From Flaviflexus ciconiae (GTDB lineage: Bacteria > Actinomycetota > Actinomycetes > Actinomycetales > Actinomycetaceae): a DNA stretch of 64,000 nt. The stretch's first letter is position 1. Each line of letters starts with the position of its first letter. Shown piece by piece: positions 1,136 to 18,085 of this stretch. Both the position numbers and the translations under genes were made by a program. A model generated the notes under the pieces. That model was not told the origin of the DNA. It saw only the letters and a program-made list of their open reading frames with translations, and searched no databases. The stretch is from positions 806,001 to 870,000 of the forward strand of contig NZ_CP034593.1 in the NCBI RefSeq assembly GCF_003971195.1. Reading direction: 5' to 3'.

Positions 1136-3032
1136 CTAGTCTTGCGGTGTTCCAAGATCGCGTAGACCGGTCCAGCGCTTGCGCAGGAGATGCGCAACGG
1201 CCTTGGGCTTCCGATCGCAGGTGAAGGCGCTCTTCTTGTTACCGTCCACGCGGACGATCCCATGTCCGGTTTGGAAGTCGGCAAAGTTCCACAGGTGCTC
1301 GCCCTGCACACCGGGGTGGAGGTCGAACAGGCCGAGATAGGCTTCGACGATCTCGACCTGAAACTCTTCCGACCACATGGCTCCGGTAAGCGAGTGAAGG
1401 CCCGCAACGGTGGCGGCCCCGAACTCTGTCGCGATGATGGGCTTACCGTACGCTTCCCAGTCGGTCAGCTTCTGGTCGAGAGCGTCAATGCCGGAGGGAT
1501 GTGGCCGGTTTGCGTGTACCAGCCGTAGTACCGGTTGATCATGAGTACGTCGCAGTATGTGGCCAGCCGGTCCTCGGAAGCCGGCGAGAACTGAACGTTC
1601 ACATATTCGACGGGACGCGTCGGATCCAGGCGGCGGGTGAGCTCAAAGAGGGGTGCGAAATAAGCTTCGGACTCTTCCGTATGCGATTCGGGTTCGTTCG
1701 CAATGGACCACATGACGACACTGGGATGGTTCTTGTCCCGCGCAACAAGTTCTGACAGGTGTGCCGCATGAGCTGCCTGCGTTTCTTCGGAAACATCATC
1801 CGGTCCGAACACCCTGTCGATCTTCGCACCGAAGGTTGCACCCACAACTTTGTTCATTCCGACCGCAGCGGCCTCGTCGATGACGACGACGCCGTGCTCG
1901 TCCGCATAGTCGAGAACCTCTTCCGCGTACGGGTAGTGGGAGGTTCGGAGCGAATTCGCCCCGATCCACGACAGGAGTTCGAAGTCGTGGACCATGAGGA
2001 CATCACTGTGGCCCCTGCCGATCGTGTCGTGATCCTCGTGCATGACGAACCCGCGGAAGTAGAACGGTTTCCCGTTGATGTGGAACTCGTGCTCCACGAC
2101 GTCCACCGTGCGGATACCAACCCGAAGGGTGCAGGAGTCGATAACGTCATCGGCGTCGCACACCTCGATAAGGAGGTCGTAGAGCCCTCCCTCACCGAGT
2201 TCCCACAGGGTTGGGTTCTTGACCTTGATGTCGAACGTATATTCCAGGCCCTTCGCATCAACACCCATCGAATCGGCTCGCCCGGCCTCGGTACCGTCGG
2301 GTCCGAGAAGTGCGGCGCGGAGTGTGAGCAGTGACGTTTGTGTGCCAAAGCCTTCGGGAAGGACGCGATGTCTGTATTCGTCTGCGTCGTGCACGTTGGA
2401 GATTGATGCCCGGCACGACACGAGGCCACGGACCTCGGCGTCGGCTTCACTTTTCTCAATGTCAGTGACAGCCGTAATGTCATCGAGGTAGTTGACGGAG
2501 GTGGAGTAGAGCCACACCCGGCGATGGATACCGGCATAGTTAAAGAAGTCGTGCATCTGCCCCTGCACCGGGCCGTACGCGGTGTCTTCAACGTAGCCGG
2601 GCGGAATAGTATGCCAGCGCAAGCGGTTGTCGATCCGGACTGTAATCCGTACTTCTTCGCCGGGCGCAACAAGATCGGAGACATCGGCTTCCAACGGCAG
2701 GTAACCACCTTCGTGCTGTGCCACATGGATATCGCTAACCCAGACATCTGCTTTGTGGGTGGCCGAGTCGAAGCGGAGAACAACAAGCTGATCGTGCCAG
2801 CCGCGCGGCTCCCGAACGGTCGTTTGGTAGAAGACGGCACCAACTATTCGTGGAGGGCGCGTCCCGGCACAATGTCGTTGTAGCTGGCCGGCACCGGCAT
2901 AAGAAAAGCATCGTCGAGCGGCCGACCGAACCACCTCTGCTCCTCCCCTACCTCATCCGGATCGGCCTTAAACCTCCACAAGCCCGAGAGGTCCTTGCGT
3001 TCACGAGTGGGCGTATCGAGCGGCTTGAGCAT
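1136..3032 (-). pseudogene. uidA: Beta-glucuronidase, interrupted by two frameshifts
   Basis: Three consecutive pieces in different frames together match family-2 glycosidase beta-glucuronidase almost end to end. The N-terminus begins MLKPLDTPTRE and has a good GAAGGATC ribosome site. The central part contains HDFFNYAGIHR, DEHGVVVIDE and the acid/base Glu in WSIANEP. The C-terminal part carries the nucleophile Glu in IIATEFG and ends after FTCDRKPK and LLRKRWTG. The frame changes fall near 2861-2867 and 1491-1499, and each is repaired by adding one base. The intact product would be about 630 residues against about 600 for the E. coli enzyme. It would release glucuronate from glucuronides and so feed the uxaC-uxuB genes near 15-18 kb. 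Both catalytic residues survive, so sequence error is a live alternative to true inactivation. Confidence 0.85.
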
Positions 3033-3185
3033 GGTGATCCTTCCCTCGCCACCCAGCCTAGGCGCAAGTCATCGCGTTGGCACGGGGGTCATTCGCTCAG
3101 CGAAATCGAGTGCAACTTGCTTGGGCAGGTACGCCCAATAAGCAAAGCCCGCACCCAGCGCCACGGAGGAGGCAATAGCTGTGGA

Positions 3186-6084: not shown

Positions 6085-6256
6085 GTAGCACCTTGGTAAA
6101 ACAACGTTGTGGTCGAACCATCCTAGGACGAAAGGCCCGTTATTGGACCGTTTCCCGCGGTGAGTCGGCGTCGAGTTGCGGTGGCGGCTACACCGACCTG
6201 GCACAATGGTGCATACCGCACATGGCAAGAGCATTGCCATTACGCCGCAACACATG

Positions 6257-6268
6257 GCAACTTGTTGC
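6257..6268. promoter_or_regulatory. GCAAC-N2-GTTGC dyad upstream of gnd
   Basis: GCAAC TT GTTGC lies 59 bases before the gnd start. The same dyad (GCAAC CA GTTGC) occurs upstream of larE at 10875-10886. LacI-family regulators bind short dyads of this type, and a LacI-type gene lies in the cluster, so a shared operator is plausible but unproven. Confidence 0.4.
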
Positions 6269-6326
6269 AGAAACTCGTGTGCTAAACCACGCTATTTGGT
6301 AAGACCTACGACAAAGGAGTCCGGAC

Positions 6327-7781
6327 ATGACTATTTCTAAACCTGCTCCATCTTCCGCCGATATCGGTGTCACCGGTATGGGTGTGATGGGCCGTAACCT
6401 CGCCAGGAACCTTGCCCGGCACGAACATCGGGTCGCCATCCACAACCGCACCGCCTCCAAGACCGAAGATGTCATGGACCAGTTCGGTGACGAAGGTACC
6501 TTCGTTCCCTCTGAATCTCTCGAGGATTTTGTTTCGTCGCTGACCCCGCCCCGCGTCGCGATCGTCATGGTCCAGGCGGGTGCAGCAACCGATGCTGTCA
6601 TTGATGATCTGGCTGACCTGCTGGACGAAGGCGACATTATCGTTGATGCCGGGAACGCACTGTTCACGGATACTCGCCGCCGCGAGGCCGCCCTGAAGGA
6701 GCGCGGCCTGCACTTCGTTGGCTGCGGTGTTTCCGGCGGTGAAGAGGGTGCGCTTTGGGGTCCGTCGATTATGCCGGGCGGTTCCGCAGACTCGTACAAG
6801 CGGCTTGGCCCCATGCTCGAGTCGATTTCCGCTCACGTCGACGGCGAACCGTGTTGCACCCACGTCGGTGAGGACGGTGCCGGTCACTTCGTCAAGATGG
6901 TGCACAACGGTATCGAGTATGCGGACATGCAGGTCATTGGTGAAGCCTACGATCTGCTCCGCCGCGGCCTTGGCCTCACGCCCGCAGAGATCTCGGAGAT
7001 TTTCGCGGAGTGGAACAAGGGCGATCTTGACTCGTATCTCATGGAGGTCTCCACGGAGGTTCTCCGCCAGGTGGATGCTGAAACCGGCAAGCCACTCGTT
7101 GACATCATTGTTGACCAAGCCGGCCAGAAGGGCACCGGCATGTGGACCGTCCAGACGGCCCTCGATCTTGCTGTTCCCGTCACCGGTATCGGTGAAGCAA
7201 CCTTCGCCCGCGGCCTGTCCTCCGCCGTTGTACAGCGCGACGCCGCCGCCGATTTCGAAGGAATTGCCGACGAATGGAATATTGCGGACCGCGACGCCTT
7301 CATTGAGGATGTTCGCCAGGCTCTCTACGCGTCGAAGATCATTGCTTACTCGCAGGGATTCAACGAGATCCAGGCCGCGGCCACCGAGTATGGCTGGGAT
7401 ATTAGCCTTGCCGACATGGCTCGGATCTGGCGGGATGGCTGCATCATCCGTGCCCGCTTCCTCGGCGATGTCACGAAGGCTTACGACAAGAACCCGGAAC
7501 TTCCGCTCCTCCTCGCCGATGAGTACTTCTACAACGCCGTGAAGACGGCACTGCCGCACTGGCGCAGGGTTGTTTCGCTCGCAGCGCTGCACGGCGTTCC
7601 TGCACCGGTCTTCTCGTCCTCCCTGTCGTACTACGACGGGGTGCGGGCCGACCGCCTCCCGGCTGCCCTCATTCAGGGTCAGCGTGACTACTTTGGCGCG
7701 CACACGTACAAGCGCGTGGACAAGGAAGGCACGTTCCACACCCTGTGGGCCACCGAAGAACGGGGCGAAGTCGAATCCTAA
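6327..7781 (+). CDS. gnd: 6-phosphogluconate dehydrogenase (decarboxylating)
   Basis: This enzyme oxidises 6-phosphogluconate to ribulose 5-phosphate with loss of CO2 and reduction of NAD(P)+. The start has a strong AAAGGAG site. The Rossmann motif GMGVMGRNLARNLA is at residues about 17-30, the GVSGGEEGA substrate segment follows near residue 135, and KMVHNGIEYADMQ, with the catalytic Lys, near residue 192. At 484 residues it is the normal long form. In this window it sits apart from zwf-opcA (44-46 kb) and instead heads a sugar-acid cluster, which suggests that it handles 6-phosphogluconate made from imported sugar acids. A strong hairpin follows directly. Confidence 0.95.
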   Translation: MTISKPAPSSADIGVTGMGVMGRNLARNLARHEHRVAIHNRTASKTEDVMDQFGDEGTFVPSESLEDFVSSLTPPRVAIVMVQAGAATDAVIDDLADLLDEGDIIVDAGNALFTDTRRREAALKERGLHFVGCGVSGGEEGALWGPSIMPGGSADSYKRLGPMLESISAHVDGEPCCTHVGEDGAGHFVKMVHNGIEYADMQVIGEAYDLLRRGLGLTPAEISEIFAEWNKGDLDSYLMEVSTEVLRQVDAETGKPLVDIIVDQAGQKGTGMWTVQTALDLAVPVTGIGEATFARGLSSAVVQRDAAADFEGIADEWNIADRDAFIEDVRQALYASKIIAYSQGFNEIQAAATEYGWDISLADMARIWRDGCIIRARFLGDVTKAYDKNPELPLLLADEYFYNAVKTALPHWRRVVSLAALHGVPAPVFSSSLSYYDGVRADRLPAALIQGQRDYFGAHTYKRVDKEGTFHTLWATEERGEVES

Positions 7782-7789
7782 GACTCTCC

Positions 7790-7813
7790 GTGGTGGGCCG
7801 CACGGCCCACCAC
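7790..7813 (+). terminator. Terminator hairpin after gnd
   Basis: A perfect 10-bp stem, GTGGTGGGCC with GGCCCACCAC, encloses a 4-base loop and starts 8 bases after the gnd stop. No clear T-run follows, as is common in high-GC actinobacteria. Confidence 0.75.
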
Positions 7814-7903
7814 CCCATTCCGTTGAATCTCAACTAAATAGCTCCAAGAGGAAAACCCACGCTCGGCTTCCACCCGGGGTTCAGCTGCACCGCACGCTAT
7901 TTC

Positions 7904-7917
7904 AAGCTCGGGAGCTT
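7904..7917. promoter_or_regulatory. Dyad AAGCTC-GG-GAGCTT upstream of the PfkB kinase
   Basis: Six-base arms flank GG in an AT-richer stretch (7900-7985) ahead of the kinase gene. It could be an operator near the promoter. There is no direct evidence for a binding protein. Confidence 0.3.
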
Positions 7918-7988
7918 TATTCAACGGGACTTATAAATTTTTCCATTCTCTATCTGCACATCCACTTCCCAACATGTAGAGGTATTCA

Positions 7989-9062
7989 ATGAAACTCCGT
8001 GAAGATGCTCGCTGGTCCATCGTCGTACCGACATCGATCGGCGTCAGGATCACACCCGAAAACCGTCAGCCCGTCCACACCACCGACCGATTCTTCATGC
8101 ATGCGACGTCGGCAGAGACCAACGTTGCGTCCGTGTCGTCGTACCTGGGTGAGCCCACGAAGGTTCTGACGAACTTCGTCGAAGGCTCCCCGATCTCCGC
8201 CTTCATTCAGGCTGATCTCCGTAAGCGCGGCATGGCATTCGAGGGCCCCTCGCTGCCGCAGGGCGACGCCTGGGGGTACCGCCACCAGTTCAACGTTGCC
8301 GACTCCGGTTTCGGTGGCCGCGGCCCCCGCGTCTGGAACGACCGGGCGGGCGAGGTCGGACTCGACCTCGATGCCGCAGATTTCGATCTAGATCGCATGT
8401 TCAAGGACGAGGGCGTGAAGATGGTCCACCTATCCGGTCTCGTTGCCGCTCTTTCCCCGAAGACCTCGAAGTTCTGTGTCGAGATTGCGAAGAAGGCCAA
8501 GGAGCACGGCACTGCCGTTTCTTTCGACCTGAACTACCGCGCTTCCTTCTGGAAGGGCCGCGAGGAAGAGCTCTCCGCAGCGTTCCATGCGATCGCCGAG
8601 CAGTGCGACATTCTCTACGGCAACGAAGAGGACTTCCAGCTCTGCCTGGGCATCAAGGGACCCGAGGCGGGAGGCAAGGACATCGATGAGGAGATCGACC
8701 AGTTCAAGCAGATGATCGGCCGCATCCAGGAGGCCTACCCGAAGGCGCAGTACATTGGCACCTCGCTCCGTGAGGTCGTCTCCGCGAACCACCACCGCTG
8801 GGGCATGATCCTCTGGGGCGAGGGCGAGTTCAACGTTGCGCACCTTCGCGACATTGACGTCCTCGACCGTATTGGCGGCGGCGACGGCTCGATCGGCGGC
8901 GTTCTCTACGGCATCCTGCAGGGCTGGGAACCGGAGAAGTGCATGCAGTTCGGATGGGCGACGGGCGCACTTGCGGCAACGTCAATCACCGACTTCGGCG
9001 CACCGGCCGACGAGGAGCAGGTCTGGGCCATCTGGTCCGGCAACGCACGCGTCAAGCGGTAA
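7989..9062 (+). CDS. PfkB-family sugar kinase, 2-keto-3-deoxygluconate kinase-like
   Basis: This is a ribokinase-fold enzyme that should phosphorylate a sugar or sugar acid with ATP. The start follows AGAGG at a good spacing. SFDLNYRASFW (residues about 178-188) is the segment typical of KDG kinases. The C-terminal motif DRIGGGDGSIGG (293-304) replaces the usual GAGD and keeps the catalytic base Asp299. At 357 residues it is slightly longer than many KDG kinases. It lies between gnd and larA with its own terminator. KDG is the default substrate, given uxaC and uxuB downstream. With neither a mannonate dehydratase nor a KDPG aldolase gene in view, another aldonate such as gluconate cannot be excluded. 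Confidence 0.8.
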   Translation: MKLREDARWSIVVPTSIGVRITPENRQPVHTTDRFFMHATSAETNVASVSSYLGEPTKVLTNFVEGSPISAFIQADLRKRGMAFEGPSLPQGDAWGYRHQFNVADSGFGGRGPRVWNDRAGEVGLDLDAADFDLDRMFKDEGVKMVHLSGLVAALSPKTSKFCVEIAKKAKEHGTAVSFDLNYRASFWKGREEELSAAFHAIAEQCDILYGNEEDFQLCLGIKGPEAGGKDIDEEIDQFKQMIGRIQEAYPKAQYIGTSLREVVSANHHRWGMILWGEGEFNVAHLRDIDVLDRIGGGDGSIGGVLYGILQGWEPEKCMQFGWATGALAATSITDFGAPADEEQVWAIWSGNARVKR

Positions 9063-9094
9063 GCACACATCAACCAGAGGCTGACATAACAGGA

Positions 9095-9137
9095 AGAGGA
9101 GGGGTCCCGTGGCGCTGCCCCGGCACCCCTCTTTTCC
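9095..9137 (+). terminator. Rho-independent terminator after the PfkB kinase
   Basis: AGGGGT (with an adjacent CCG pairing across a mismatch) pairs with ACCCCT and is followed by CTTTT. It lies 35 to 75 bases after the kinase stop. Confidence 0.7.
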
Positions 9138-9140
9138 ACC

Positions 9141-9225
9141 CTACGGACTTCCATCATCCACGGACTTCCATCATCCACGGACTTTCGTCAACCATGGGCC
9201 TCCGTCAACCACGGTTTTCCGTCCG
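9141..9225. repeat. Tandem array A, five 17-bp units
   Basis: Five adjacent 17-base units begin at 9141, 9158, 9175, 9192 and 9209. The first two differ only at one position (CTACGG versus CCACGG, then ACTTCCATCAT). Later units drift. The period is not a multiple of three and no good ORF crosses the array, so it is not coding. Confidence 0.75.
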
Positions 9226-9412
9226 TCGCAGTCCCAGCCCCGCAAATCGTTCCCATCATGGTTCGTTTCCGGGCCGTAGGTGAAGGCGAGTTCAGCAATC
9301 AAACATGTATCGTGCCTTCCCCGGTCAACAGCGGCCCGCCCTTCGAACCAGATCCGCGACCAGAATGGGTTGGACCACCACGCGCCACCCGCGGCAACGA
9401 CCTAGACAGGGT

Positions 9413-9497
9413 GGCCACCTAAACAAAGCGGTCTCCTAAACAAACCGGCCAACTCGACAAACCGGCTACCCAAACAAACCGAATACCCATACGAACC
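9413..9497. repeat. Tandem array B, five 17-bp units upstream of larA
   Basis: Units start at 9413, 9430, 9447, 9464 and 9481. On the minus strand the consensus is about GGTTTGTTTGGGTGGCC. The array ends 31 bases before the larA ATG, so it overlaps the larA promoter or leader. Its sequence differs from array A although the period is the same. The 187 bases between the arrays show nothing I can name. Confidence 0.7.
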
Positions 9498-9528
9498 GGC
9501 CTACCCGGCAGGCACAGAGAGGTGCATT

Positions 9529-10824
9529 ATGACGAAGCTTTATCCCGGTATCCCCGAAGCGATTGGCATCGGTGGTCCCGATACGACGTTGACGGATGAT
9601 GAGATCCGCAGTTTCGTTACTGAGCAACTGGGTGACTACGACTTCGATGGCAAGCGCGTGACGCTTGTTGTCCCCGACGGTACCAGGCATGCCCCGGTTG
9701 CAAAGCTCGCCCATATGATCCGCGATGCTCTTGGCAATCGCCCAAAGGACGTTCGCGTTGTCATCGCTCTTGGCACCCACGACAAGATGAGTGAAGAGGC
9801 TATCGGTGCGCTCATGGGCTACGAACCCGGGCATTTCAACGACTCTTTCCCGGGTTGGCAGATTTTCAATCACGAATGGTGGGATGAGGACACGTTCGCG
9901 AATCAGGGAACCATTCCCGCCGACAAGATCAAGGAACTATCGGGCGGACGTCTCGAGCGTGAAATGGTTGTGCACGTCAACAAGATGGTGGTTGACACCG
10001 ACATCACCTTTATTCTCGGTCCGGTGCTCCCCCACGAGGTTGTTGGTATCTCTGGCGGCAACAAGTACCTCTTTCCCGGGCTTTCGGGTCACGACGTCAT
10101 CAACATGTCGCACTGGGTGGGTGCTCTCATCACATCCTTTGAGATGATCGGCTCTCGCGGAATCACCCCCGTCCGTCAGATGATCGACGCGGCAGCATCG
10201 CTTGTCCCGTCAACGAAGATCATGCTTGGCATGATCGTGAAACCGGGCGGCGGCTACGACCTGCACTACGTCGCCTTCGGCGATGTTCACGCGGCCTGGG
10301 AGGCCTGCGCACAAGTATCTGCGGACGTGCACGTCAAGTACGTGGAGAAGCCATATCGGCGGGTCGTGTCCATCATGCCGACCATGTACGAGGACATGTG
10401 GACGGCAGCGAAGGGCTTTTACAAGCTCGAACCGATCGTCGCCGACGGCGGAGAGCTCATCATATACGCCCCGCACATCGACACGATCTCCCACATGCAT
10501 CCCGACATCGTCAAGATCGGCTATCACAACCGCGACTACTTCGTGAAGCAGTGGGACAAGTTCGAAGACAAGCCCTGGGGTGACCTCGCCCACTCGACAC
10601 ACTTGCGGGGCAAGGGCACCTTCGACCCCGAAACCGGTACCGAAGAGAACCGCGTGACCGTCACCCTCGCCACGAAGATCCCTCGCGATGTCGTCGAGTC
10701 CATCAACCTGTCTTACATGGATCCCGAGGACCTCGACTTCGAGGCCCTAGAAGCCGATCCCGATACCTTCGTCGTCCCGCACGCCGGTGAACTCCTGCAC
10801 CGCGTCGAAGCACGCGAAAGGTAG
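9529..10824 (+). CDS. larA: LarA-family nickel-pincer hydroxyacid racemase/epimerase
   Basis: LarA enzymes invert the alpha carbon of 2-hydroxyacids through hydride transfer to a nickel-pincer nucleotide. Residues corresponding to the L. plantarum LarA active site are recognisable: VPDGTR (Asp50, Arg53), LGTH (His84), LPH (His169), the cofactor-binding Lys179 in SGGNKYLFPG, and a downstream His195 in MSHW. The start has GAGAGG about 6 bases upstream. The protein has 431 residues. It is followed by the cofactor genes larE, larB and larC. It lies among gnd, a KDG-kinase-like gene, uxaC and uxuB, so I infer that the substrate is a sugar acid such as gluconate/mannonate rather than lactate. The family assignment is firm; the substrate is not. 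Confidence 0.85.
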   Translation: MTKLYPGIPEAIGIGGPDTTLTDDEIRSFVTEQLGDYDFDGKRVTLVVPDGTRHAPVAKLAHMIRDALGNRPKDVRVVIALGTHDKMSEEAIGALMGYEPGHFNDSFPGWQIFNHEWWDEDTFANQGTIPADKIKELSGGRLEREMVVHVNKMVVDTDITFILGPVLPHEVVGISGGNKYLFPGLSGHDVINMSHWVGALITSFEMIGSRGITPVRQMIDAAASLVPSTKIMLGMIVKPGGGYDLHYVAFGDVHAAWEACAQVSADVHVKYVEKPYRRVVSIMPTMYEDMWTAAKGFYKLEPIVADGGELIIYAPHIDTISHMHPDIVKIGYHNRDYFVKQWDKFEDKPWGDLAHSTHLRGKGTFDPETGTEENRVTVTLATKIPRDVVESINLSYMDPEDLDFEALEADPDTFVVPHAGELLHRVEARER

Positions 10825-10874
10825 TACTCAAGAGAATAGGTGCCGGCAAACTTCTCAGCAATCTGTCCGAGACG

Positions 10875-10886
10875 GCAACCAGTTGC
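10875..10886. promoter_or_regulatory. GCAAC-N2-GTTGC dyad in the larA-larE gap
   Basis: GCAAC CA GTTGC matches the dyad ahead of gnd. The 294-base larA-larE gap also holds further GGCAA repeats between 10940 and 10976. There is no gene in the gap that I can support. It probably carries the promoter of larEBC. Confidence 0.4.
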
Positions 10887-11118
10887 ACCGCTAGGACGAG
10901 CAACTACACCGGCCAGTATCCATAAAAGCAGATTGGGCGATGGCAACAACTGGCAATGTTGTCATCGTGGCAACGAACATTGATGAAATAGACGCAAGAG
11001 AGCTTGACTTCACGCAAGGGAGCGATGACATGGCCGAATGGACACCGTTGTCGATGCGGAATGCTGACTGCGCCAGGTTTGCCCGCTTCCCTCGGGCTCA
11101 CCGTCGAGGAGGAAACGC

Positions 11119-12021
11119 ATGACTAGTCAGATAGCGGCAACGCCCGGTTTCGCCCGCGATCTTCCACCGCACTTCGACGAGCTCGCCCAACGGGTCGCCG
11201 CCGAGGTTAAGAATGCTCTCGGCAAGGCACCGCGGCCCAAAATCGGGGTTGCCTATTCCGGCGGCGTAGACTCCGCTGTTCTCGGCGCCCTTGTCGCTCG
11301 CGCAGTCGGCCCCGATAGAACCGTTCTTCTCCTCGGCATTTCTCCATCGCTGGCAGCACGTGAACGAACCCTCGCCCACAGGCAGGCCGAGGAAATGGGT
11401 CTACAGGTGATCGAGGTTCCCACTGAAGAGATCAAAAACGCTGAGTACCGCAAGAACGACGTTGACCGCTGCTACTTCTGCAAGGACGAGCTCTTCACGA
11501 CGCTGGATGACAGCGCGGCCGAGGCTCATGATCTTGGCGTAATCGCCTACGGCGAGAATGCCGATGATTCGAAGCGACCGGATCGTCCCGGCGGCAGGGC
11601 TGCTCGAGAGCATTCCGTTCTTTACCCCCTCGCCACCGCCGGCATCAAGAAGGTCCAGGTCCGGGAGATTGCCTCTGCTCTTGGCCTGAGCTCTGCGCTG
11701 AAGCCGGCAGCCCCGTGCTTGGCTTCCCGTATTCCTCACGGCCAGGAAGTCACGGCCGAGAAGCTTCATGCCGTTGACGTAGCCGAAGATGTTGTTCTTG
11801 GCGCGGGCTTCAGCGACTGCCGCGTACGCCATCACGGCACCGTTGCCCGTATCGAAGTGCCGACGGACGAGATCGGCAGGATCGCCAATGACGAGCTTCG
11901 TAGACACGTTCTCAAGGGTGTGAAGCAGGCGGGCTTTAGCCACGTCGCCTTCGATCTCAACGGCATCCAGTCCGGTGCTTTCACCATGCAGATTCTCTCC
12001 CGCAGACCGGAGGAAGCATGA
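11119..12021 (+). CDS. larE: LarE, sulfur-inserting enzyme of nickel-pincer cofactor synthesis
   Basis: LarE is an N-type ATP pyrophosphatase that turns the two carboxylates of the LarB product into thiocarboxylates. The PP-loop SGGVDS is at residues 47-52. Cys118 and Cys121 occur in RCYFCKDE and Cys200 in PCLASRIPHG. The last corresponds to the cysteine sacrificed in L. plantarum LarE. Having all three recalls the LarE type that binds a [4Fe-4S] cluster. AGGAGG precedes the ATG. The stop overlaps the larB start (ATGA), so the two are translationally coupled. Length is 300 residues, slightly longer than typical. Confidence 0.92.
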   Translation: MTSQIAATPGFARDLPPHFDELAQRVAAEVKNALGKAPRPKIGVAYSGGVDSAVLGALVARAVGPDRTVLLLGISPSLAARERTLAHRQAEEMGLQVIEVPTEEIKNAEYRKNDVDRCYFCKDELFTTLDDSAAEAHDLGVIAYGENADDSKRPDRPGGRAAREHSVLYPLATAGIKKVQVREIASALGLSSALKPAAPCLASRIPHGQEVTAEKLHAVDVAEDVVLGAGFSDCRVRHHGTVARIEVPTDEIGRIANDELRRHVLKGVKQAGFSHVAFDLNGIQSGAFTMQILSRRPEEA

Positions 12022-12707
12022 GCAGTATCGCGAACCTTGACTTTGGTCGATACGAGCGGAGGGGTTATCCCGAAGCCGTTCTGTGCGACGGGAAGTCCCT
12101 TGACCAGTGTGTACATATCGCACGCACCTGGAGAGCAAAGGCCAATGAGGGCCTGAACCTGGGCACGGTCCTGTTCACTCGGATTACCGAGGACAAGGCC
12201 AAGGCGGTCACCAACATTTTAGATGGTGCGATCTGGCACGAGACAGCCCGCATGGTGGCGTGGCCGGGGGACGTACCTGAGCCAAGCGGAGGCAAGGTCA
12301 TTGTTGCCTGCGCGGGCACGTCCGATCTTCCCGTCGCCCAAGAAGCAGCGCTCACCGCACGGTACCTCGGCAGGTCCGTGACCGAACTCGTTGATGTTGG
12401 GGTTGCCGGCCTGGACCGGATCCTCGCCCACCGCGAAACTCTCCAGTCCGCCCGGGTCATCGTGGTAGTGGCCGGAATGGAAGGGGCACTTGCTTCCGTT
12501 GTATCAGGACTCGTTTCTTGCCCGGTTGTTGCCGTCCCAACGTCGGTTGGCTACGGAGCGTCGTTCGGAGGCATCACTGCCCTTCTCAGCATGCTGAACT
12601 CCTGCTCCCCCGGCGTGTCCGTCGTCAATATCGACAACGGCTACGGAGCCGGACATCTCGCAGCGCAGATCGCAGAACCCCAGGGAGACACGCATGGCAC
12701 CGCATGA
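12018..12707 (+). CDS. larB: LarB, nicotinate adenine dinucleotide carboxylase/hydrolase
   Basis: LarB carboxylates the pyridinium ring of nicotinic acid adenine dinucleotide and cleaves the phosphoanhydride, which is the first step towards the nickel-pincer cofactor. The C-terminal half has the fold of the PurE-type AIR carboxylase, seen as ACAGTSDLPVAQEA (about residues 95-108), VAGMEGALASVV and PTSVGYGASFGG. Length is 229 residues, normal for the family. It overlaps larE by 4 bases and larC by 14 bases, so the three genes form one unit. Confidence 0.92.
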   Translation: MSSIANLDFGRYERRGYPEAVLCDGKSLDQCVHIARTWRAKANEGLNLGTVLFTRITEDKAKAVTNILDGAIWHETARMVAWPGDVPEPSGGKVIVACAGTSDLPVAQEAALTARYLGRSVTELVDVGVAGLDRILAHRETLQSARVIVVVAGMEGALASVVSGLVSCPVVAVPTSVGYGASFGGITALLSMLNSCSPGVSVVNIDNGYGAGHLAAQIAEPQGDTHGTA

Positions 12708-14213
12708 TCACGGCCACAGCAGACATTCCGACCGCGAGCACGCCCACTCTCATGGTCATTCTCATGACGGGGCTTCTCACGGAAGTCACTTGCACGGTAG
12801 TCATCCCCACAACCACGGTGGGTACTCTCATTCTCACGGCGAGTACAGTCGCGAGATTTCGACTGCCGACGGCCTACCCGTACCCGAGAGTCAGCAAATT
12901 GAGGCAACCGACCTTTGGGAAGGTGAAGCAGACCGGACTCTGTGGATCGATGCGAGCCAGGGCGCTTCTGGCGATATGTTGCTCGGTGCTCTGCTTGATG
13001 CTGGTGCCGATGCTGGTTCTGTTGCGAAGGTTCTTGAGCTCATCGCACCGGGCCTGCTCCACCTTCAGTCGCGGCACGTGGTCCGCGGTCCGTTCCGCGC
13101 GGTCAAGGTGGACGTCATTGCCGACGAGCCGAATCCCCCCGCCCGTCATCTCTCCGACGTCGAGGAGCTTCTGGAAGCTCCGGGAGTTCCCCGGCAACCC
13201 GGGATTTAGCAAAGGAAGCGTTCCACCTGCTCGCGGAGGCCGAGGCTCACGTGCACGGCGCAAGCATCGAGTCGGTTCATTTCCACGAGGTGGGCGCTCT
13301 CGACTCGATCGGCGATATCGTCGGCGTCTGCGAGGCAATCCGGACCCTCGGGGTGGAAACAGTCGTCACCTCAACCGTTGCGGTCGGTGCGGGAACGGTG
13401 AAGACCCAGCATGGTGTGTTGACGGTTCCACCACCCGCCGTTGCCGAGCTGGCGAAGGGCTGGCCCGTCGAGGCCGGCGGACCGGGGGATGTTGGCGAGC
13501 TCTGCACTCCAACGGGGATGACTCTGATTCGCACGCTGTCCGCTAGGCACGGGAACATGCCGGAGATGGTGGTTGAGGAGATTGGTGTTGGTGCCGGCAC
13601 CAGAATCCGCAAGGACCGGGCAGGCGTTGTTCGAGTGGTGGTCGGCACCGCGGCGCACGATAGGACACCAGCTCACTCCGTGGCCGGTGCCGCCATTGAT
13701 TTAGATTCTTCGCATAATCAGGTAACTGAACCCTCCTTTGAGCCGGACGATCGGGTGCATACGGTCGAGGCGAATGTGGATGATATGGATCCGCGCCTGT
13801 GGCCGAGTGTGCTTGATGCCTTGATTTCTGCCGGTGCGAATGATGCCTGGCTGACACCGATTGTTATGAAGAAGGGCCGGCCCGCCGACGTTGTCTCCGC
13901 GCTCTCGCATGAGAATAGCCTGTCGGCCGTCGTTGATGCGATGGTGGCACACACCTCGACGATCGGCGTGCGCGTTTCTGCGCCCTCGCACCGGAGGGTC
14001 CTGAACCGCAGCATTGTTCCGATCGACGTTGACGGGATGATGGTGCGGGTCAAGGTCTCGGGGTCCGAGGACGAGATCACGCACGTGAGCATCGAATTTG
14101 ATGACGTCGCTCGGGTGGCTCGTTCTCTCGATATTCCGCAGCGCGAGGCACTGTCAATGTGTGAGTCTGTTGCCTGGTCGGCCGGACTCGTTTGCGGAAG
14201 GAGTATGCCGTGA
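12694..14213 (+). CDS. larC: LarC, nickel-inserting cyclometallase, split by a frameshift
   Basis: LarC inserts nickel into the pincer nucleotide. Part one (12694-13209) opens with a His-rich tract (residues about 4-50) likely to bind nickel, then has the LarC1 motif WIDASQGASGDMLLGALLDAG. Part two runs in the -1 frame to 14213 and contains LAKEAF..LAEAEAHVHG, HFHEVGALDSIGD and GTVKTQHG. The switch must fall near 13188-13194 (TCCCCGG), where the first frame meets TAG 13 bases later. In Lactobacillus plantarum larC1 and larC2 are joined by programmed ribosomal frameshifting, so this may be real. However, the window has nine other single-base deletions, so a missing C or G is just as likely. 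The stop overlaps the regulator start (GTGA). Confidence 0.85.
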
Positions 14214-15216
14214 CGGACGCAAAGAAGCGTGTCACCATTTACGATGTCGCTAAAGTCGCGGGAGTCGCTCCCTCAACCGTGTCGCGAGCCTTCTCTCGAC
14301 CGGGTCGTGTCAATGCCGAGACATCCCGCCGGATCTACGAGGTTGCCGAAGGACTCGGTTACCGTTCCCAGTCACCGGCCCGCCTGGATACGGGGAAGGT
14401 TTCGAAGATTCTCGCCTTTGTCGTCTCCGACATCAATAACCCGTTCCTCACTCACATCATGCGGGGCTTCCAGCAGGAAGCCAGCCAGCAGGGCTACACC
14501 ACCCTACTGATTGACTCTCAGGAGTCCGATTCCGCAGAGCGCAGCTCTATTGAGAAGATCATTCACCTGGTTGACGGCGTTGTTCTTACCTCATCGAGGA
14601 TGTCTGATTCGACGATCAGCCAGATCATGAAGGTCAAGCCCGTGATCGCCATTAATCGCGAGGTCCGCGGGGTTCCCTCCATTCTTCCCGACACTGACCG
14701 CGGTGTGCGCCAGGCCGTCGAGCTGATTGCCAGCCATCATCACAAGCGCCTGCTTTATCTGGCTGGCCCAGAATCATCCTGGGCCGACGGCGTACGGTGG
14801 CGGGCGCTCGCCGAGTCCTGCGATGAACTGGATATCACTCTCAAGCGCATCGGGCCCTATCCGCCCTCGCTCATGGGTGGCATTACTGCTTCCCGGGTGT
14901 GGATCCGGCAGCAGTCCTCGGCTGTCATGGCCTACAACGATCTCCTTGCCATCGGGTTCATGAAGGCCGTTCAGAACGCTGGCTTCAACGTTCCCGGCGA
15001 CGTGTCCGTCATCGGCATGGACAACACGATCACGACCGCACTAACCACTCCTACACTCACGACCGTCGCTACTCCCCGAACATGCTGGGTGTGCGGGCTG
15101 CTCGCACTCTCATCTATCAGTTGCAGAACCGGTCGAAGCAACAACCCAAGACCGTGACGGTCCCCATGAACGTGTTCCTGCGGGAATCCGTGGGGCCCGT
15201 TCCAACACCAGCCTAG
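14210..15216 (+). CDS. LacI-family transcriptional regulator, frameshifted near its C-terminus
   Basis: The GTG at 14210 is chosen because GGAAGGAG lies 6 bases upstream; it overlaps the larC stop. The N-terminus VTIYDVAKVAGVAPSTVSRAFS is a LacI-type helix-turn-helix, followed by a periplasmic-binding-protein-like sensor domain. The frame is lost near 15064-15068. Adding one base restores SPNMLGVRAARTLIYQL and a normal end at 15216, giving about 335 residues. It probably senses a sugar acid and controls the lar and uxa/uxu genes, perhaps through the GCAAC-N2-GTTGC dyads. The frameshift may be sequence error. Confidence 0.85.
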
Positions 15217-15257
15217 GAATCTCCGGCTCGATGACCACCACCAACGAAGGATTCGTG

Positions 15258-16694
15258 ATGACAACGCCACGTACCGGCCGCGCGCCGCTCACTCTCCACC
15301 CGGACCGGCTCTTCCCTGCCGATCCGACCACCCGCGATATCACGCGTAAGATCTACCAGCAGATTGTTGACCTGCCGATCATTTCCCCGCACGGTCACGT
15401 GCCGGTCGAATGGCTTGCCGATGACATTCCGTTCACCGACCCGACCTCCCTTCTTCTCACCCCGGACCACTACACGAACCGCATGCTTCATGGCGCGGGC
15501 GGCGTTGAGCTATCCGAACTCGGCGTTCCCGTGGGAAGCGAGATGACACCCGAACAGTCCCGGAATGCGTTCCGCAAGCTGTGCGAGAACTGGAAGTACT
15601 TCCGTGGCACCCCGGTTCGCTACTGGTTCGAGCAGGAGTTCTACGACCTGTTCGATGTACGGGTGCGCCCCAGTGCCGACACTGCGGACGAGATCTACGA
15701 CCAGATTGCCGCGAAGCTCGCCACCCCCGAGTACCGGCCGCGCGCTCTCTACCAGCGGTTCAATATCGGGGCGATTGCCACGACCGATGATCCCTGTTCC
15801 GACCTGTCCGGTCACGCGAAGTTGCTGGCAGATCCGACATGGGACAGCAAGGTGGCCCCGACGTTCCGGCCCGATGCGTACCTCGAGCCGGGCCGGTCCA
15901 ACTGGAATGAGCTCACAAACAACCTGGGTGAGGTTACGGGCGTCAATGTCGACACCTACGCCGGCAACCTGGAAGCCATGAGGACCCGCCGCCAGTACTT
16001 CAAGGAGCACGGCGCCGTCTCCTCCGATCACTCTCACGCCGATGCTGGATGCGAGAGGCTCTCCGACCGGGAAGCCGAAGCGCTGTATGCAAAAGCAAGA
16101 CAGGGCACGATCGAACAGGCGGATGCTGACAGGCTCCGCCGCCACATGATCAACGACCAGGCGAAGCTTGCCACCGAGGACGGGCTGGTCATGACCCTGC
16201 ATCCGGGCGTGTACCGCAACCACGACACGCAGGCCTTTGAGCGCTACGGTGCCGACGTCGGCGGCGACGTTCCCTACGCCATTGAGTTCACGAAGGCACT
16301 TCAGCCCATCCTTGACTCCTACGGCAACGTTGACGGCTTCCAGCTGGTCGTGTTCACCATGGACGAGACGGTGTACAGCCGCGAGCTGGCCCCCATGGCC
16401 GGCTACTACCGCTGCCTCTTCGTTGGCGCCCCCTGGTGGTTCATCGACGAGGCTGACGCCATCATGCGCTACCGCCGTTCCGTCACCGGGTACGCAGGCT
16501 TCTACAAGACATCCGGGTTCATCGATGACACCCGCGCCTTCTGCTCGATCCCGGCCCGCCACGACCTGGCCCGCCGCATCGACTCCGCCTTCCTCGGTGG
16601 CCTCGTTGCCGAGCACCGCCTCGACATGGATGAGGCCGTCGAGACCGCTATCGATATTGTCACCACCCAGCCGCGAAAGGTATTCAAGCTATGA
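15258..16694 (+). CDS. uxaC: Glucuronate isomerase
   Basis: This enzyme interconverts D-glucuronate and D-fructuronate (and galacturonate and tagaturonate) in the cytosol. The ATG at 15258 has GAAGGA upstream. The ATG at 15231 would add nine residues and has a weaker site. Family features are SPHGHVPVEWLADD near the N-terminus (metal-site His residues), PTFRPDAYL, DHSHADAG and the C-terminal GAPWWFID and KTSGFIDDTRAFCSIPARHD. Length is 478 residues, normal. It follows the regulator by 41 bases and overlaps uxuB by ATGA, so all are probably co-transcribed. Its substrate would come from beta-glucuronidase or from import. Confidence 0.95.
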   Translation: MTTPRTGRAPLTLHPDRLFPADPTTRDITRKIYQQIVDLPIISPHGHVPVEWLADDIPFTDPTSLLLTPDHYTNRMLHGAGGVELSELGVPVGSEMTPEQSRNAFRKLCENWKYFRGTPVRYWFEQEFYDLFDVRVRPSADTADEIYDQIAAKLATPEYRPRALYQRFNIGAIATTDDPCSDLSGHAKLLADPTWDSKVAPTFRPDAYLEPGRSNWNELTNNLGEVTGVNVDTYAGNLEAMRTRRQYFKEHGAVSSDHSHADAGCERLSDREAEALYAKARQGTIEQADADRLRRHMINDQAKLATEDGLVMTLHPGVYRNHDTQAFERYGADVGGDVPYAIEFTKALQPILDSYGNVDGFQLVVFTMDETVYSRELAPMAGYYRCLFVGAPWWFIDEADAIMRYRRSVTGYAGFYKTSGFIDDTRAFCSIPARHDLARRIDSAFLGGLVAEHRLDMDEAVETAIDIVTTQPRKVFKL

Positions 16695-18085
16695 GCACGC
16701 AACTGACCCGTTCCACCCACGGTAGGCCAGCCGCACCCGTGCGGATTCTCCACGTGGGGCTGGGCAACTTCATGAGAGCCCACCAGGCCTGGTACACGGA
16801 AAAAGCCAGTAACGCCGACGAGTGGGGAATTGCAGCTTTCACGGGCCGCAGGCCTCTGATGGCGGAGCTGCTGGCGCCCCAGGATGGTCTTTACACTCTG
16901 ATCACCAAGGAGGCAGCCGGTAACTCCTACGAGGTCATCTCGTCAATCGTTGCCGTCCATCCCGCCTCCGACTTCGCTTCCTTCATTGGCTACTTTGAGT
17001 CCTCGGACCTGTCGATCGTCACCTCAACGGTGACCGAGGTCGGCTACTGCCGCCGCCCCGACGGCTCCCTGGATCTGGAGGACGCAAGGGTGGCAGCCGA
17101 CCTGGAGGCACTCAAGGAACTTGTCGGTAAAGAAATGGAGCTGGGCTCTGCCGAGCTCTCCACGGCGCCCGCGAAGATCCTTGCCGGTCTTCTTGCCCGT
17201 CGGGCCGCCGGGGTTGGACCGCTCACGATCCTGCCGTGCGACAACCTGCCGGACAACGGTTCAGCATTCGCACGCGTTGTGGCCGATGCTGCCCGCGAGG
17301 TCGATCCCAGCATTGTGCAGTGGATGGTTGAGAACGTCTCCTGGGCCACGTGCATGGTTGACCGCATTACCCCCGCAACTTCCGATGCGGATCGAGACGA
17401 GTGCGAGAAGGTGCAGGGCTACGCCGATGCCTCACCGGTTCCGACCGAGCCCTTTAGCGAATGGGTTATCTCGGGCGACTTTCCCGCGGGCCGCCCCGAC
17501 TGGGAAGTCGCCGGCGCTCAGATCGTTGAGGATGTCGAGCCCTACGAGCAGCGCAAGCTGTGGATGCTGAACGGCTCCCACTCCCTCATGGCCTACGCAG
17601 CACCGATCTTCGGCCATGCGACCGTGGCCGACGCCATCGGCGACCAAGTGGTGCGGGGCTGGGTTCAGAAGTGGTGGGAGGAAGCCGGCTCCGGACTTCA
17701 GGTCGAATGGGAGGACTACGCGGCAGCCCTCCTGGCTCGCTACGAGAACCCGAACATTCGTCACCTGCTGGCACAGATCGCACACGACGGTTCCCAGAAG
17801 ATCCCCGTCCGCATCGCACCCACGCTGATCAATCAGCGCACGCAGGGTAAGCTCCCGGTCTCCGCAGTTAAGGCCGTTGCAGCCTGGATGCTCCACTTGC
17901 AGGGCTATGGCGCACCTGTTGTCGACAAGAGCGCCGACAAGGTCGCCAGCCAGCTGAACGACAACGCAACGAAGAATGCCGAAGTCGTTCTCAACTATGT
18001 GGCACCCGAGCTCAGCGGCGATGCCGAACTCGTCACCGCGATCGCCGATGCAGCAGAGGAAATCCTCAGCTTCGTCAAGGAATAA
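16691..18085 (+). CDS. uxuB: Fructuronate reductase (mannonate oxidoreductase), long-chain mannitol dehydrogenase family
   Basis: This enzyme reduces D-fructuronate to D-mannonate with NADH. The Rossmann segment HVGLGNFMRAHQAWY is near residue 20. LPCDNLPDNG is in the middle, and the polyol-dehydrogenase signature RKLWMLNGSHSLMAY (about residues 289-303) holds the conserved Lys-x-x-x-x-Asn/His set. Family members also act on mannitol, altronate or arabinitol; coupling to uxaC favours fructuronate. Length is 464 residues. No uxuA (mannonate dehydratase) follows, so the fate of mannonate is open. A hairpin at 18111-18156 closes the operon. Confidence 0.9.
   Translation: MSTQLTRSTHGRPAAPVRILHVGLGNFMRAHQAWYTEKASNADEWGIAAFTGRRPLMAELLAPQDGLYTLITKEAAGNSYEVISSIVAVHPASDFASFIGYFESSDLSIVTSTVTEVGYCRRPDGSLDLEDARVAADLEALKELVGKEMELGSAELSTAPAKILAGLLARRAAGVGPLTILPCDNLPDNGSAFARVVADAAREVDPSIVQWMVENVSWATCMVDRITPATSDADRDECEKVQGYADASPVPTEPFSEWVISGDFPAGRPDWEVAGAQIVEDVEPYEQRKLWMLNGSHSLMAYAAPIFGHATVADAIGDQVVRGWVQKWWEEAGSGLQVEWEDYAAALLARYENPNIRHLLAQIAHDGSQKIPVRIAPTLINQRTQGKLPVSAVKAVAAWMLHLQGYGAPVVDKSADKVASQLNDNATKNAEVVLNYVAPELSGDAELVTAIADAAEEILSFVKE

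Follow-up and report, generated by a model that had tools for sequence, protein, structure and literature searches.

A locus of Flaviflexus ciconiae raises the question of how glucuronate is degraded when genes for its conversion to D-mannonate are present in a genome in which mannonate dehydratase (UxuA) was not found. The original prediction concerned the window, which is the whole stretch of 64,000 nucleotides that was analysed. It read a co-directed run of gnd, pfkB, larA, larE, larB, larC, lacI, uxaC and uxuB as a route from glucuronate through mannonate and gluconate to 6-phosphogluconate and Gnd. In this study, the run was confirmed at 6327-18085 from its ORFs and their families (Table 1), and the route was supported as the best interpretation by the lack of UxuA, by a LarA nearer to GntE2 and by synteny. 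We consider it probable that the locus represents a regulon for glucuronide catabolism under LacI control, which avoids KDG and leads into the pentose phosphate pathway. The basis is gene content, searches in which no UxuA, Edd or GntK was found, synteny, a shared motif, the relationship and residues of LarA, and the exclusion between GntK and the PfkB-family protein (PfkB-357); substrates and reactions in this organism are inferred from genomes throughout.

In the proposed route, UidA would release glucuronate, UxaC would convert it to fructuronate, and UxuB would reduce fructuronate to D-mannonate. LarA, carrying a nickel-pincer cofactor predicted to be made by LarB, LarE and LarC, would epimerise D-mannonate at C2 to D-gluconate. 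PfkB-357 would then convert gluconate to 6-phosphogluconate in the place of GntK, and Gnd would decarboxylate this product to ribulose 5-phosphate. Such a route uses one NAD(P)H, regains one NADPH and spends one ATP, with no dehydration to KDG.

Gene content of the locus and the genome

Table 1. Coordinates of genes and operator-like sites in the window
Feature	Position	Strand	Basis
gnd, decarboxylating NADP-dependent 6-phosphogluconate dehydrogenase, 484 aa	6327..7781	+	NCBIfam PRK09287 724 bits (cut-off 413), TIGR00873 656 (cut-off 426.7)
PfkB-357, 357-aa PfkB-family kinase, proposed D-gluconate 6-kinase	7989..9062	+	Pfam PfkB; nearest structure 2afb
larA homologue, proposed nickel-pincer-dependent D-mannonate/D-gluconate 2-epimerase (GntE-like)	9529..10824	+	PDB 4nar match, Lar_N
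larE, sulfur transferase, nickel-pincer cofactor synthesis	11119..12021	+	TIGR00268 244 bits, cut-off 150
larB, cofactor synthesis	12018..12707	+	NF033503 273 bits, cut-off 175
larC first piece, frame-broken	12694..13209	+	Ni_insertion profile positions 1-85; relatives' LarC aligns in two frames
larC second piece, other frame	13251..14213	+	TIGR00299 and NF052512, both over cut-off
LacI-family regulator	14192..15157, last part in other frame to ~15207	+	Pfam LacI and Peripla_BP
uxaC, glucuronate isomerase	15231..16694	+	NF002794 517 bits, cut-off 387; PDB 2q01 uronate isomerase E 4e-129
uxuB-like mannitol-dehydrogenase-family protein, proposed fructuronate reductase	16691..18085	+	Pfam Mannitol_dh
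uidA, beta-glucuronidase, three frames	1172..3068	-	main piece 518 bits to PRK10150, just below cut-off 544; three tblastn pieces
Operator-like palindrome TGGCAACTTGTTGCAG	6255..6270	.	core ends 58 bases before gnd
Operator-like palindrome CGGCAACCAGTTGCAC	10873..10888	.	between larA and larE

The uidA gene was indeed nearby, on the opposite strand and in three frames. The larC and lacI genes were present in the run as described, but neither was intact in the window. UxaC was identified by a score over cut-off. The family of the UxuB-like protein was supported by Pfam, and its subfamily was settled neither by profile nor by PDB score. It scored 248 bits to D-arabinitol 4-dehydrogenase and 215 bits to fructuronate reductase, far below both cut-offs (600 and 603), so its name rests on context. 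The uxuB gene adjoined uxaC in all 8 LarA loci holding both genes.

The canonical UxuA-KdgK-KdgA glucuronate route requires UxuA. A profile search of the whole genome (one contig, 96.1% complete) gave no UxuA match, the control being positive in 5 of 14 known genomes including T. maritima. UxuA and the KDPG aldolase had been noted as missing from the window; this was confirmed, the aldolase occurring twice elsewhere in the genome and UxuA giving no match anywhere in it. The two aldolases and a KDG kinase were present without a dehydratase and without the operator at the aldolase loci, and thus no uxuA-kdgA pair exists. Both ILVD_EDD proteins of the genome scored over cut-off as dihydroxy-acid dehydratases and far below the Edd cut-off, and a gluconate dehydratase of the IlvD/Edd type was rejected by these cut-offs. 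A gluconate dehydratase of the enolase superfamily was also rejected, the two MR_MLE matches being MenC, by its position in a men cluster, and enolase, by eye. The searches of the genome also gave no recognised gluconokinase: no protein was over the cut-off for GntK (TIGR01313), and among 10 of the 11 FGGY matches, which were scanned, none reached the FGGY gluconokinase cut-off (best 255 vs 648.55 bits).

The same gene order or gene set recurred in relatives. G075, a genome of the same genus (98% complete), keeps gnd-pfkB-larE-larB-lacI-uxaC-uxuB; no LarA or UxuA was found in this genome and no larC in the cluster stretch. Mannonate would thus have no outlet in G075, unless a different enzyme takes over this step or the cluster is in decay. 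Among the 15 LarA genomes, a full UxuA was present in G052. In G095, G126 and G133 the UxuA profile was matched weakly (26-29 bits; Pfam cut-off 23.7), and these proteins were rejected as IolE-like, with 32-33 bits against the mannonate dehydratase cut-off of 191.

LarA as a putative D-mannonate/D-gluconate 2-epimerase

The best PDB match of LarA was 4nar (GntE2), with 204 bits and E 3e-59, compared with 31 bits for lactate racemase and 25 for malate racemase. By fold, 4nar also ranked first (TM 0.84/0.86; 31% identity). Sequence score, profile score and fold all placed LarA nearer to GntE2 than to lactate racemase, and a role as lactate or malate racemase was rejected on these comparisons. 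In alignment to 4nar and 2yjg, the cofactor-binding and catalytic residues D72, R75, H108, H174, K184, H200 and K298 of the reference LarA had as counterparts D50, R53, H84, H169, K179, H195 and K295 of the present protein, which were invariant in 23 aligned sequences, the query included. According to Desguin et al., LarA groups 18-20 are marked by an EV/S loop after the catalytic histidine, a W in helix 11 and an A/V signature in helix 14. The present LarA has the first two, the loop E170-V171 after the catalytic H169 and W291 being invariant in the same 23 sequences. LarA was below cut-off for every NCBIfam model listed. On the hexonate-epimerase model NF052594 (cut-off 500) it scored 183 bits; a 414-residue stretch of GntE2 itself scored just 193, so the model does not cover GntE2 either. 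From these relationships, we propose that LarA is a GntE-type D-mannonate/D-gluconate 2-epimerase.

The idea of this route is not new: it was put forward for Thermotoga in 2012, and an assay of the epimerase followed in 2020. GntE2 (LarAH20) of Thermotoga maritima is a proven D-mannonate/D-gluconate 2-epimerase and acts on free mannonate, according to Desguin et al. (2020). The T. maritima route has a common logic with the one proposed here: uronate isomerase and reductase, LarA-family 2-epimerase, gluconate kinase and pentose phosphate pathway. T. maritima has UxuA, whereas it was not found in this genome, and T. maritima has a gluconate kinase gene, presumably of the FGGY family, where this locus has a PfkB-family protein. 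What seems new is the actinobacterial regulon for the route, together with a candidate PfkB-family gluconokinase replacing GntK.

PfkB-357 as a candidate gluconokinase

PfkB-357 matched Pfam PF00294 with 72 bits, and the GxGD residues G296, G298 and D299 were invariant in three alignments. Its nearest solved structure was the KDG kinase of T. maritima, 2afb (TM 0.83/0.90), and it shares with KDG kinases (KdgK, PfkB family; 2afb, 1v19) the fold and the DLNYR, NEED and GxGD motifs. The two differ in two places. PfkB-357 has TSAE where the compared KDG kinases have GGGE or GGAE (GGxE), T40 and S41 being invariant in 41 sequences, and GGGDGS in place of GGGDSF (GxGDSF). The GG pair, part of the N-terminal substrate motif of KdgK, was seen in 2afb as well as in the two KdgK proteins linked to an aldolase. 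PfkB-357 was below the KDG-kinase equivalog cut-off (best 91 vs 440 bits); the aldolase-adjacent KDG kinase of the genome also missed it (148 vs 440), and this test is therefore weak alone. PfkB-357 also belongs to neither known gluconokinase family, GntK (TIGR01313) or FGGY (TIGR01314), and would be an unrelated enzyme for the same job.

The distribution of the two kinases was complementary. Among 151 Actinomycetaceae genomes, PfkB-357 was present in 14, GntK in 44 and both in none (Fisher p 0.006, a value that ignores relatedness). The 15 genomes with a LarA of at least 58% identity each had exactly one of the two, 10 PfkB-357 and 5 GntK; the scan for FGGY-type gluconokinase covered the F. 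ciconiae genome (10 of 11 matches). Three genera contain switches between PfkB-357 and GntK. G150 has gnd directly beside larA, with no pfkB there, and its GntK lies on another contig; in three genomes GntK is fused to Gnd. Many loci join PfkB-357 to gnd and LarA, unlike KdgK: it adjoined gnd in 8 of 15 loci and was not beside it in the other 7. Four genomes with PfkB-357 lack LarA (G036, G057, G069 and G075). As a separate observation, a GH3 or HAD gene occurred in the fetched stretch of 9 of the 15 PfkB-357 loci. A class-wide search (E 1e-100, genomes at least 90% complete) returned the F. ciconiae genome alone, 1 of 393, so that no wide count is possible.

The mutual exclusion with GntK strengthens the original guess that the PfkB protein is the gluconate kinase. 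On balance, we lean towards the reading that PfkB-357 is a third, unrelated gluconokinase that arose from a KDG-kinase-like ancestor, was repeatedly swapped with GntK in Actinomycetaceae and Propionibacteriaceae, and forms with LarA a complete glucuronide-to-pentose-phosphate regulon. Among the papers listed in literature searches, none described a PfkB gluconokinase, judged by title or the start of the abstract. If this reading is true, a KDG-kinase name for PfkB-357 in actinobacteria would be wrong and a missing gluconokinase would be identified. The breakdown of uronates by these bacteria, which carry a beta-glucuronidase, would be nickel-dependent, and its redox balance would differ from that of the textbook route, with NADPH and pentose phosphate rather than pyruvate as products.

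Other roles for the two proteins were weighed against these data. It is very unlikely that PfkB-357 is an ordinary KDG kinase, with a dehydratase that escaped the profile searches supplying its KDG. The nearest structure and folds are those of KDG kinases, some sources name the protein 2-dehydro-3-deoxygluconokinase, and a KDPG aldolase exists in the genome; however, the kinase next to the aldolase is a closer homologue (180 bits to 2afb, compared with 111 for PfkB-357), the TSAE and GGGDGS motifs depart from the KDG-kinase pattern, and neither UxuA, Edd, a sugar-acid MR_MLE enzyme nor, at the aldolase locus, the motif described below was found. The kinase might instead act first, PfkB-357 being a mannonate kinase and LarA or another epimerase acting on 6-phosphomannonate. 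The retention of pfkB, gnd, uxaC and uxuB without larA in G075 agrees with this order, and so does the galacturonate pathway of Lactobacillus suebicus, in which, as reported by Valk et al. (2020; PMC6978723), an isomerase route likewise reaches 6-phosphogluconate without UxuA, kinase before epimerase on the phosphorylated acid, in extracts and with the genes unknown. We regard this order as rather unlikely, since PfkB-357 and GntK exclude each other even in genomes without LarA, and since GntE2, the closest characterised LarA relative among those compared, acts on free mannonate. LarA could also epimerise another sugar acid, such as an aldarate, its place among glucuronate genes marking a side branch. 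GntE1 (LarAH19) of Corynebacterium glutamicum is likewise an actinobacterial LarA homologue in a uronic-acid gene context with D-mannonate epimerase activity; its native substrate is in doubt, and Desguin et al. suggested another one for it, its KM for mannonate being 120 mM. For the present LarA this is highly improbable, because the genome searches gave no further enzyme known to consume mannonate, and several relatives have larA in one run together with gnd and pfkB.

Frame breaks and an operator-like motif

Compared with the LarC of relatives, larC was spread over two frames (12625-13206 and 13197-14210), and alignment to relatives placed a frame change in lacI between 15025 and 15076. These breaks, with that of uidA, might be real, so that the locus is a decaying remnant in the genus and the route is dead in this strain; the G075 cluster without larA and larC is consistent with this. 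An intact 506-residue LarC (P0241, 30 member sequences) exists that is 98% identical to the second larC piece, and because of it the break in larC probably reflects a faulty assembly or is confined to this strain. Sequence errors are also suggested by the number of frame-broken genes, three between 1172 and 15207, together with an FGGY-family gene elsewhere in the genome that carries an internal stop. Since LarA, PfkB, Gnd, UxaC and UxuB also have whole ORFs, we consider decay unlikely; it can in any case be compatible with the best explanation of the role of the gene set elsewhere.

The core GCAACNNGTTGC had exactly two occurrences in the 64-kb window, and both belong to this locus; 0.11 were expected, and two were reached in 1 of 100 shuffles. 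The full 16-base consensus, by contrast, was not matched in the window even when 3 mismatches were allowed. The core also preceded gnd or larA in several relatives, and G075 has the same 16 bases as TGGCAACTTGTTGCAG, with 60 bases between the end of the core and its gnd. Loci selected around pfkB and larA, 417 kb in all, held 11 near-matches, of which 10 lay at most 250 bases upstream of gnd, larA, lacI, GH3 or HAD genes. When three discovery sites were left out, 7 of 8 near-matches still lay in those positions (p 1e-10, relatedness being ignored). The search gave no such motif in the locus of Arachnia. We infer that the LacI regulator pairs with this operator-like motif.

A GH3-HAD pair beside pfkB in several relatives at first suggested a competing role for the kinase. 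Motif sites adjoin these genes: G095, G133 and G046 each have one between GH3 and gnd, in G014 a site precedes GH3, and in G087 one lies 185 bases upstream of HAD. These sites suggest that GH3 and HAD may belong to the same regulon.

Gene run and its counterparts in relatives

The window covers bases 806001-870000 of a genome assembled as a single contig of 2.83 Mb (96.1% complete). ORFs and profile searches confirmed the predicted co-directed run of gnd, kinase, lar, regulator and uronate genes with uidA nearby, a penicillin-acylase-like ORF (recognised by eye) separating uidA from the run. Profile scores do not settle the substrate of the UxuB-like protein. Alignment of relatives' proteins to the window showed that the reading frame shifts inside each of larC, lacI and uidA. 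Because an intact 506-residue LarC exists (cluster P0241, 30 member sequences) that is 98% identical to the second larC piece of the window, at least the larC break probably stems from faulty assembly or is peculiar to the strain. An FGGY-family gene elsewhere in the genome (L011) also carries an internal stop; together with the three broken genes, this may point to more indel errors than usual in the assembly.

Coordinates of the features discussed (window positions, genome positions or fetched stretches with their own numbering)
Feature	Location	Strand	Basis
gnd, PfkB-family kinase, larA, larE, larB, larC, lacI-type regulator, uxaC, uxuB-like	6327-18085	+	ORFs and profile searches
uidA	1172-3068, upstream of the gnd run	opposite (-)	frame changes
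larC-lacI frame-broken stretch	12694-15207	+	frame changes versus relatives
KDG kinase, KDPG aldolase, second PfkB kinase, second KDPG aldolase	1762621-1769537 (G000:C1; L018:9621-16537)		
GntK-6-phosphogluconate dehydrogenase fusion, about 650 residues	L100:8071-10011, L103:8355-10337, L104:7698-9677		single proteins
GH3 and HAD-like genes of relatives	L071:16373-19829, L064:3014-5695, L028:4612-7280, L077:10052-12757		
LarA locus of Propionimicrobium lymphophilum	L029:8461-11323		
Cluster of the same-genus relative G075	L062:7869-16275		

The gene order recurred in relatives. In Arachnia propionica it was HAD/GH3, gnd-pfkB-larA, a GPH-type transporter, uidA, larE-larB-larC, lacI, uxaC and uxuB. 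Genomes G095 and G046 held the same set, G126 held it minus uidA, the transporter and GH3/HAD, and G133 had its first half within the fetched stretch. We examined 17 LarA loci (LarA identity at least 58%; 15 from the family panel, plus Arachnia and Propionimicrobium). The fetched stretch included gnd at 10 of the 17 and both uxaC and uxuB at 8, several of the remaining loci being short contigs or short fetched stretches. At four loci (G052, G076, G118 and G139), larE, larB and larC were present, and gnd, uxaC and uxuB were not in the fetched stretch. The Propionimicrobium stretch contained no gnd, uxaC, uxuB, larE, larB or larC; the LarA of this species, 65% identical, adjoins a fumarase-like gene (by eye).

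Epimerase candidate and dehydratase search

The solved structure closest to LarA by sequence was 4nar, at 204 bits versus 31 for lactate racemase, 27 for 9q3j and 25 for malate racemase. 4nar also ranked first against the predicted LarA structure (from 23 sequences, pLDDT 85), with TM scores of 0.84/0.86. 4nar is GntE2 of Thermotoga maritima, which turns D-mannonate into D-gluconate with a KM of 17 mM; the same report lists the catalytic and cofactor residues (Desguin et al. 2020, PMC7583248). In our alignment, D50, R53, H84, H169, K179, H195 and K295 of LarA occupy these positions, and they, the E-V loop and W291 were invariant in 23 sequences hand-picked among the 120 best matches. LarA thus has these residues, the loop, W291 and the fold in common with GntE2. 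Neither protein exceeded any NCBIfam cut-off, including that of the 'putative hexonate epimerase' model (LarA 183 bits, GntE2 193 bits). By bit score and fold rank, LarA is nearer to the gluconate 2-epimerase GntE2 than to lactate racemase, in line with the original proposal.

A profile search for UxuA gave no match in the whole genome (control positive in 5 of 14 well-known genomes). Both ILVD_EDD proteins exceeded the cut-off as dihydroxy-acid dehydratases; of two MR_MLE matches, one is MenC by its position among men genes, the other an enolase by eye. The single P-loop GntK match stayed below the cut-off (22 versus 113.75 bits), and no GntK was found at E 1e-10 with every candidate scored. 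Ten of the 11 FGGY matches were scanned for FGGY gluconokinase, the best reaching 255 bits against 648.55; the 11th, outside the scan, is stop-interrupted beside a glpD-like gene (by eye). Of the genes originally proposed for a genome-wide search, uxuA and gntK were thus not found. As to kdgA/eda, the genome has two KDPG aldolases, together with a KDG kinase and a second PfkB protein (1.762-1.766 Mb), but no dehydratase was recognised at their locus, nor was the operator-like motif found there. Tripartite-transporter-like genes (by eye) adjoin this locus, whose products perhaps import and metabolise KDG or a similar keto-deoxy acid.

Rodionova et al. 2012, as cited in PMC7583248 and PMC6978723, proposed the route from mannonate through gluconate into the pentose phosphate pathway. 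Epimerase activity was shown in 2020 for GntE2 and for GntE1 of Corynebacterium glutamicum (Desguin et al., PMC7583248) and in 2024 for further LarA homologues (PMC11770544). The searched passages of two reviews on how uronates or sugar acids are metabolised (PMC6353982, PMC12076931) do not mention the route. Titles and abstract openings, from a coverage mostly outside subscription journals, described neither a PfkB-family gluconokinase nor a nickel-pincer enzyme with gluconate in Actinobacteria. Therefore, the idea of the route is not new; what this analysis adds is an actinobacterial regulon for it and the candidate kinase.

PfkB-357 as a candidate gluconokinase

The window copy of PfkB-357, the 357-residue kinase of the run, was 74-89% identical to 40 homologues picked out of the 120 best matches. 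Its description as KDG-kinase-like held for the family (PfkB) and for the nearest structures, which are KDG kinases. Two of its motifs consistently depart from those of the aldolase-linked KDG kinase in this genome (TSAE for GGGE, GGGDGS for GGGDSF).

Across 151 Actinomycetaceae genomes, we called PfkB-357 at E 1e-60, GntK over its cut-off and LarA at E 1e-30. PfkB-357 occurred in 14 genomes, GntK in 44 and both in none (one-sided Fisher p 0.006). The GntK count scored 22 candidates per genome; all candidates of the 14 PfkB-357 genomes were scored separately, and none was GntK. LarA matched in 17 genomes, and two matches at 30-31% identity were dropped before counting (G113, 57% complete, with neither kinase; G125, with GntK). 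All 15 remaining genomes hold exactly one kinase (10 PfkB-357, 5 GntK), and 58 of the 151 hold either (p 1.7e-7; both p values assume independence, which related genomes violate). Switches within three genera are the better argument: among the genomes listed, g1 has 2 with PfkB-357 and 4 with GntK, g16 has 1 and 2, and g23 has 3, 2 and 2 with neither; these genera may contain more genomes that carry neither kinase. The zero overlap strengthens the original suggestion that the PfkB protein may phosphorylate gluconate.

PfkB-357 adjoins gnd in 8 of 15 loci. In G150 (g23), larA directly follows gnd with no pfkB between, and GntK lies on another contig, separated by two genes from a gluconate-permease-like gene (by eye). 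G146, G078 and G121 each have a protein that joins classical GntK to a Gnd domain, so Gnd and a gluconokinase go together in Actinomycetaceae in any case. In G057, the partner of gnd is PfkB-357 and that of the aldolase is a separate KDG kinase; this genome also has UxuA. No GntK was found in the Arachnia genome, which carries PfkB-357. The Propionimicrobium genome also gave no GntK match, and the fetched stretch around its larA has no gnd or lar cofactor gene.

Operator-like motif and loci lacking LarA

Palindromes between GH3 and gnd of G095, G133 and G046 yielded the consensus TGGCAACCGGTTGCCA; the regions scanned held 17 palindromes of all kinds versus 7.6 expected (at most 16 in a shuffle). 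Allowing up to 3 mismatches, the consensus had 11 sites in 26 loci (417,020 bases), and 10 lie no more than 250 bases upstream of gnd, larA, lacI, GH3 or HAD. Setting aside the three discovery sites leaves 8, of which 7 are upstream of those genes (p 1e-10). The window has just two copies of the core GCAACNNGTTGC, one located 58 bases before gnd and the other between larA and larE, versus 0.11 expected (a single shuffle out of 100 gave 2). In G075, the identical 16 bases stand 60 bases ahead of gnd; the Arachnia locus had no site with up to 3 mismatches. The LacI protein of the cluster would be the one that binds this motif. In several relatives, genes for a 590-aa GH3 glycosidase and for a HAD-like protein (recognised by eye, without a Pfam match) adjoin gnd-pfkB, and a motif site precedes GH3 in some. 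These two genes may be members of the glucuronate regulon.

G075 keeps the cluster with larE and larB, and thus cofactor genes without their enzyme: no LarA or UxuA was found in its whole genome, and larC was not in the fetched stretch. This genome may be losing the route, or it deals with mannonate by other means. This leaves room for the order reported by Valk et al. 2020 (PMC6978723), in which phosphorylation precedes epimerisation. G036, G057 and G069 likewise have PfkB-357 and no LarA match; two of these assemblies are less than 90% complete and one consists of 690 contigs. A full UxuA is present in one LarA genome, G052. Proteins of G095, G126 and G133 scored 26-29 bits to the UxuA profile, above its 23.7 cut-off; we rejected them as UxuA, as they are IolE-like (AP_endonuc_2 102-106 bits, IolE model 158-160) and reach 32-33 bits on the mannonate dehydratase model, whose cut-off is 191. 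These IolE-like proteins (L113, L114 and L115) lie 17-20 kb from larA in G126, G133 and G095, in the same neighbourhood as the cluster.
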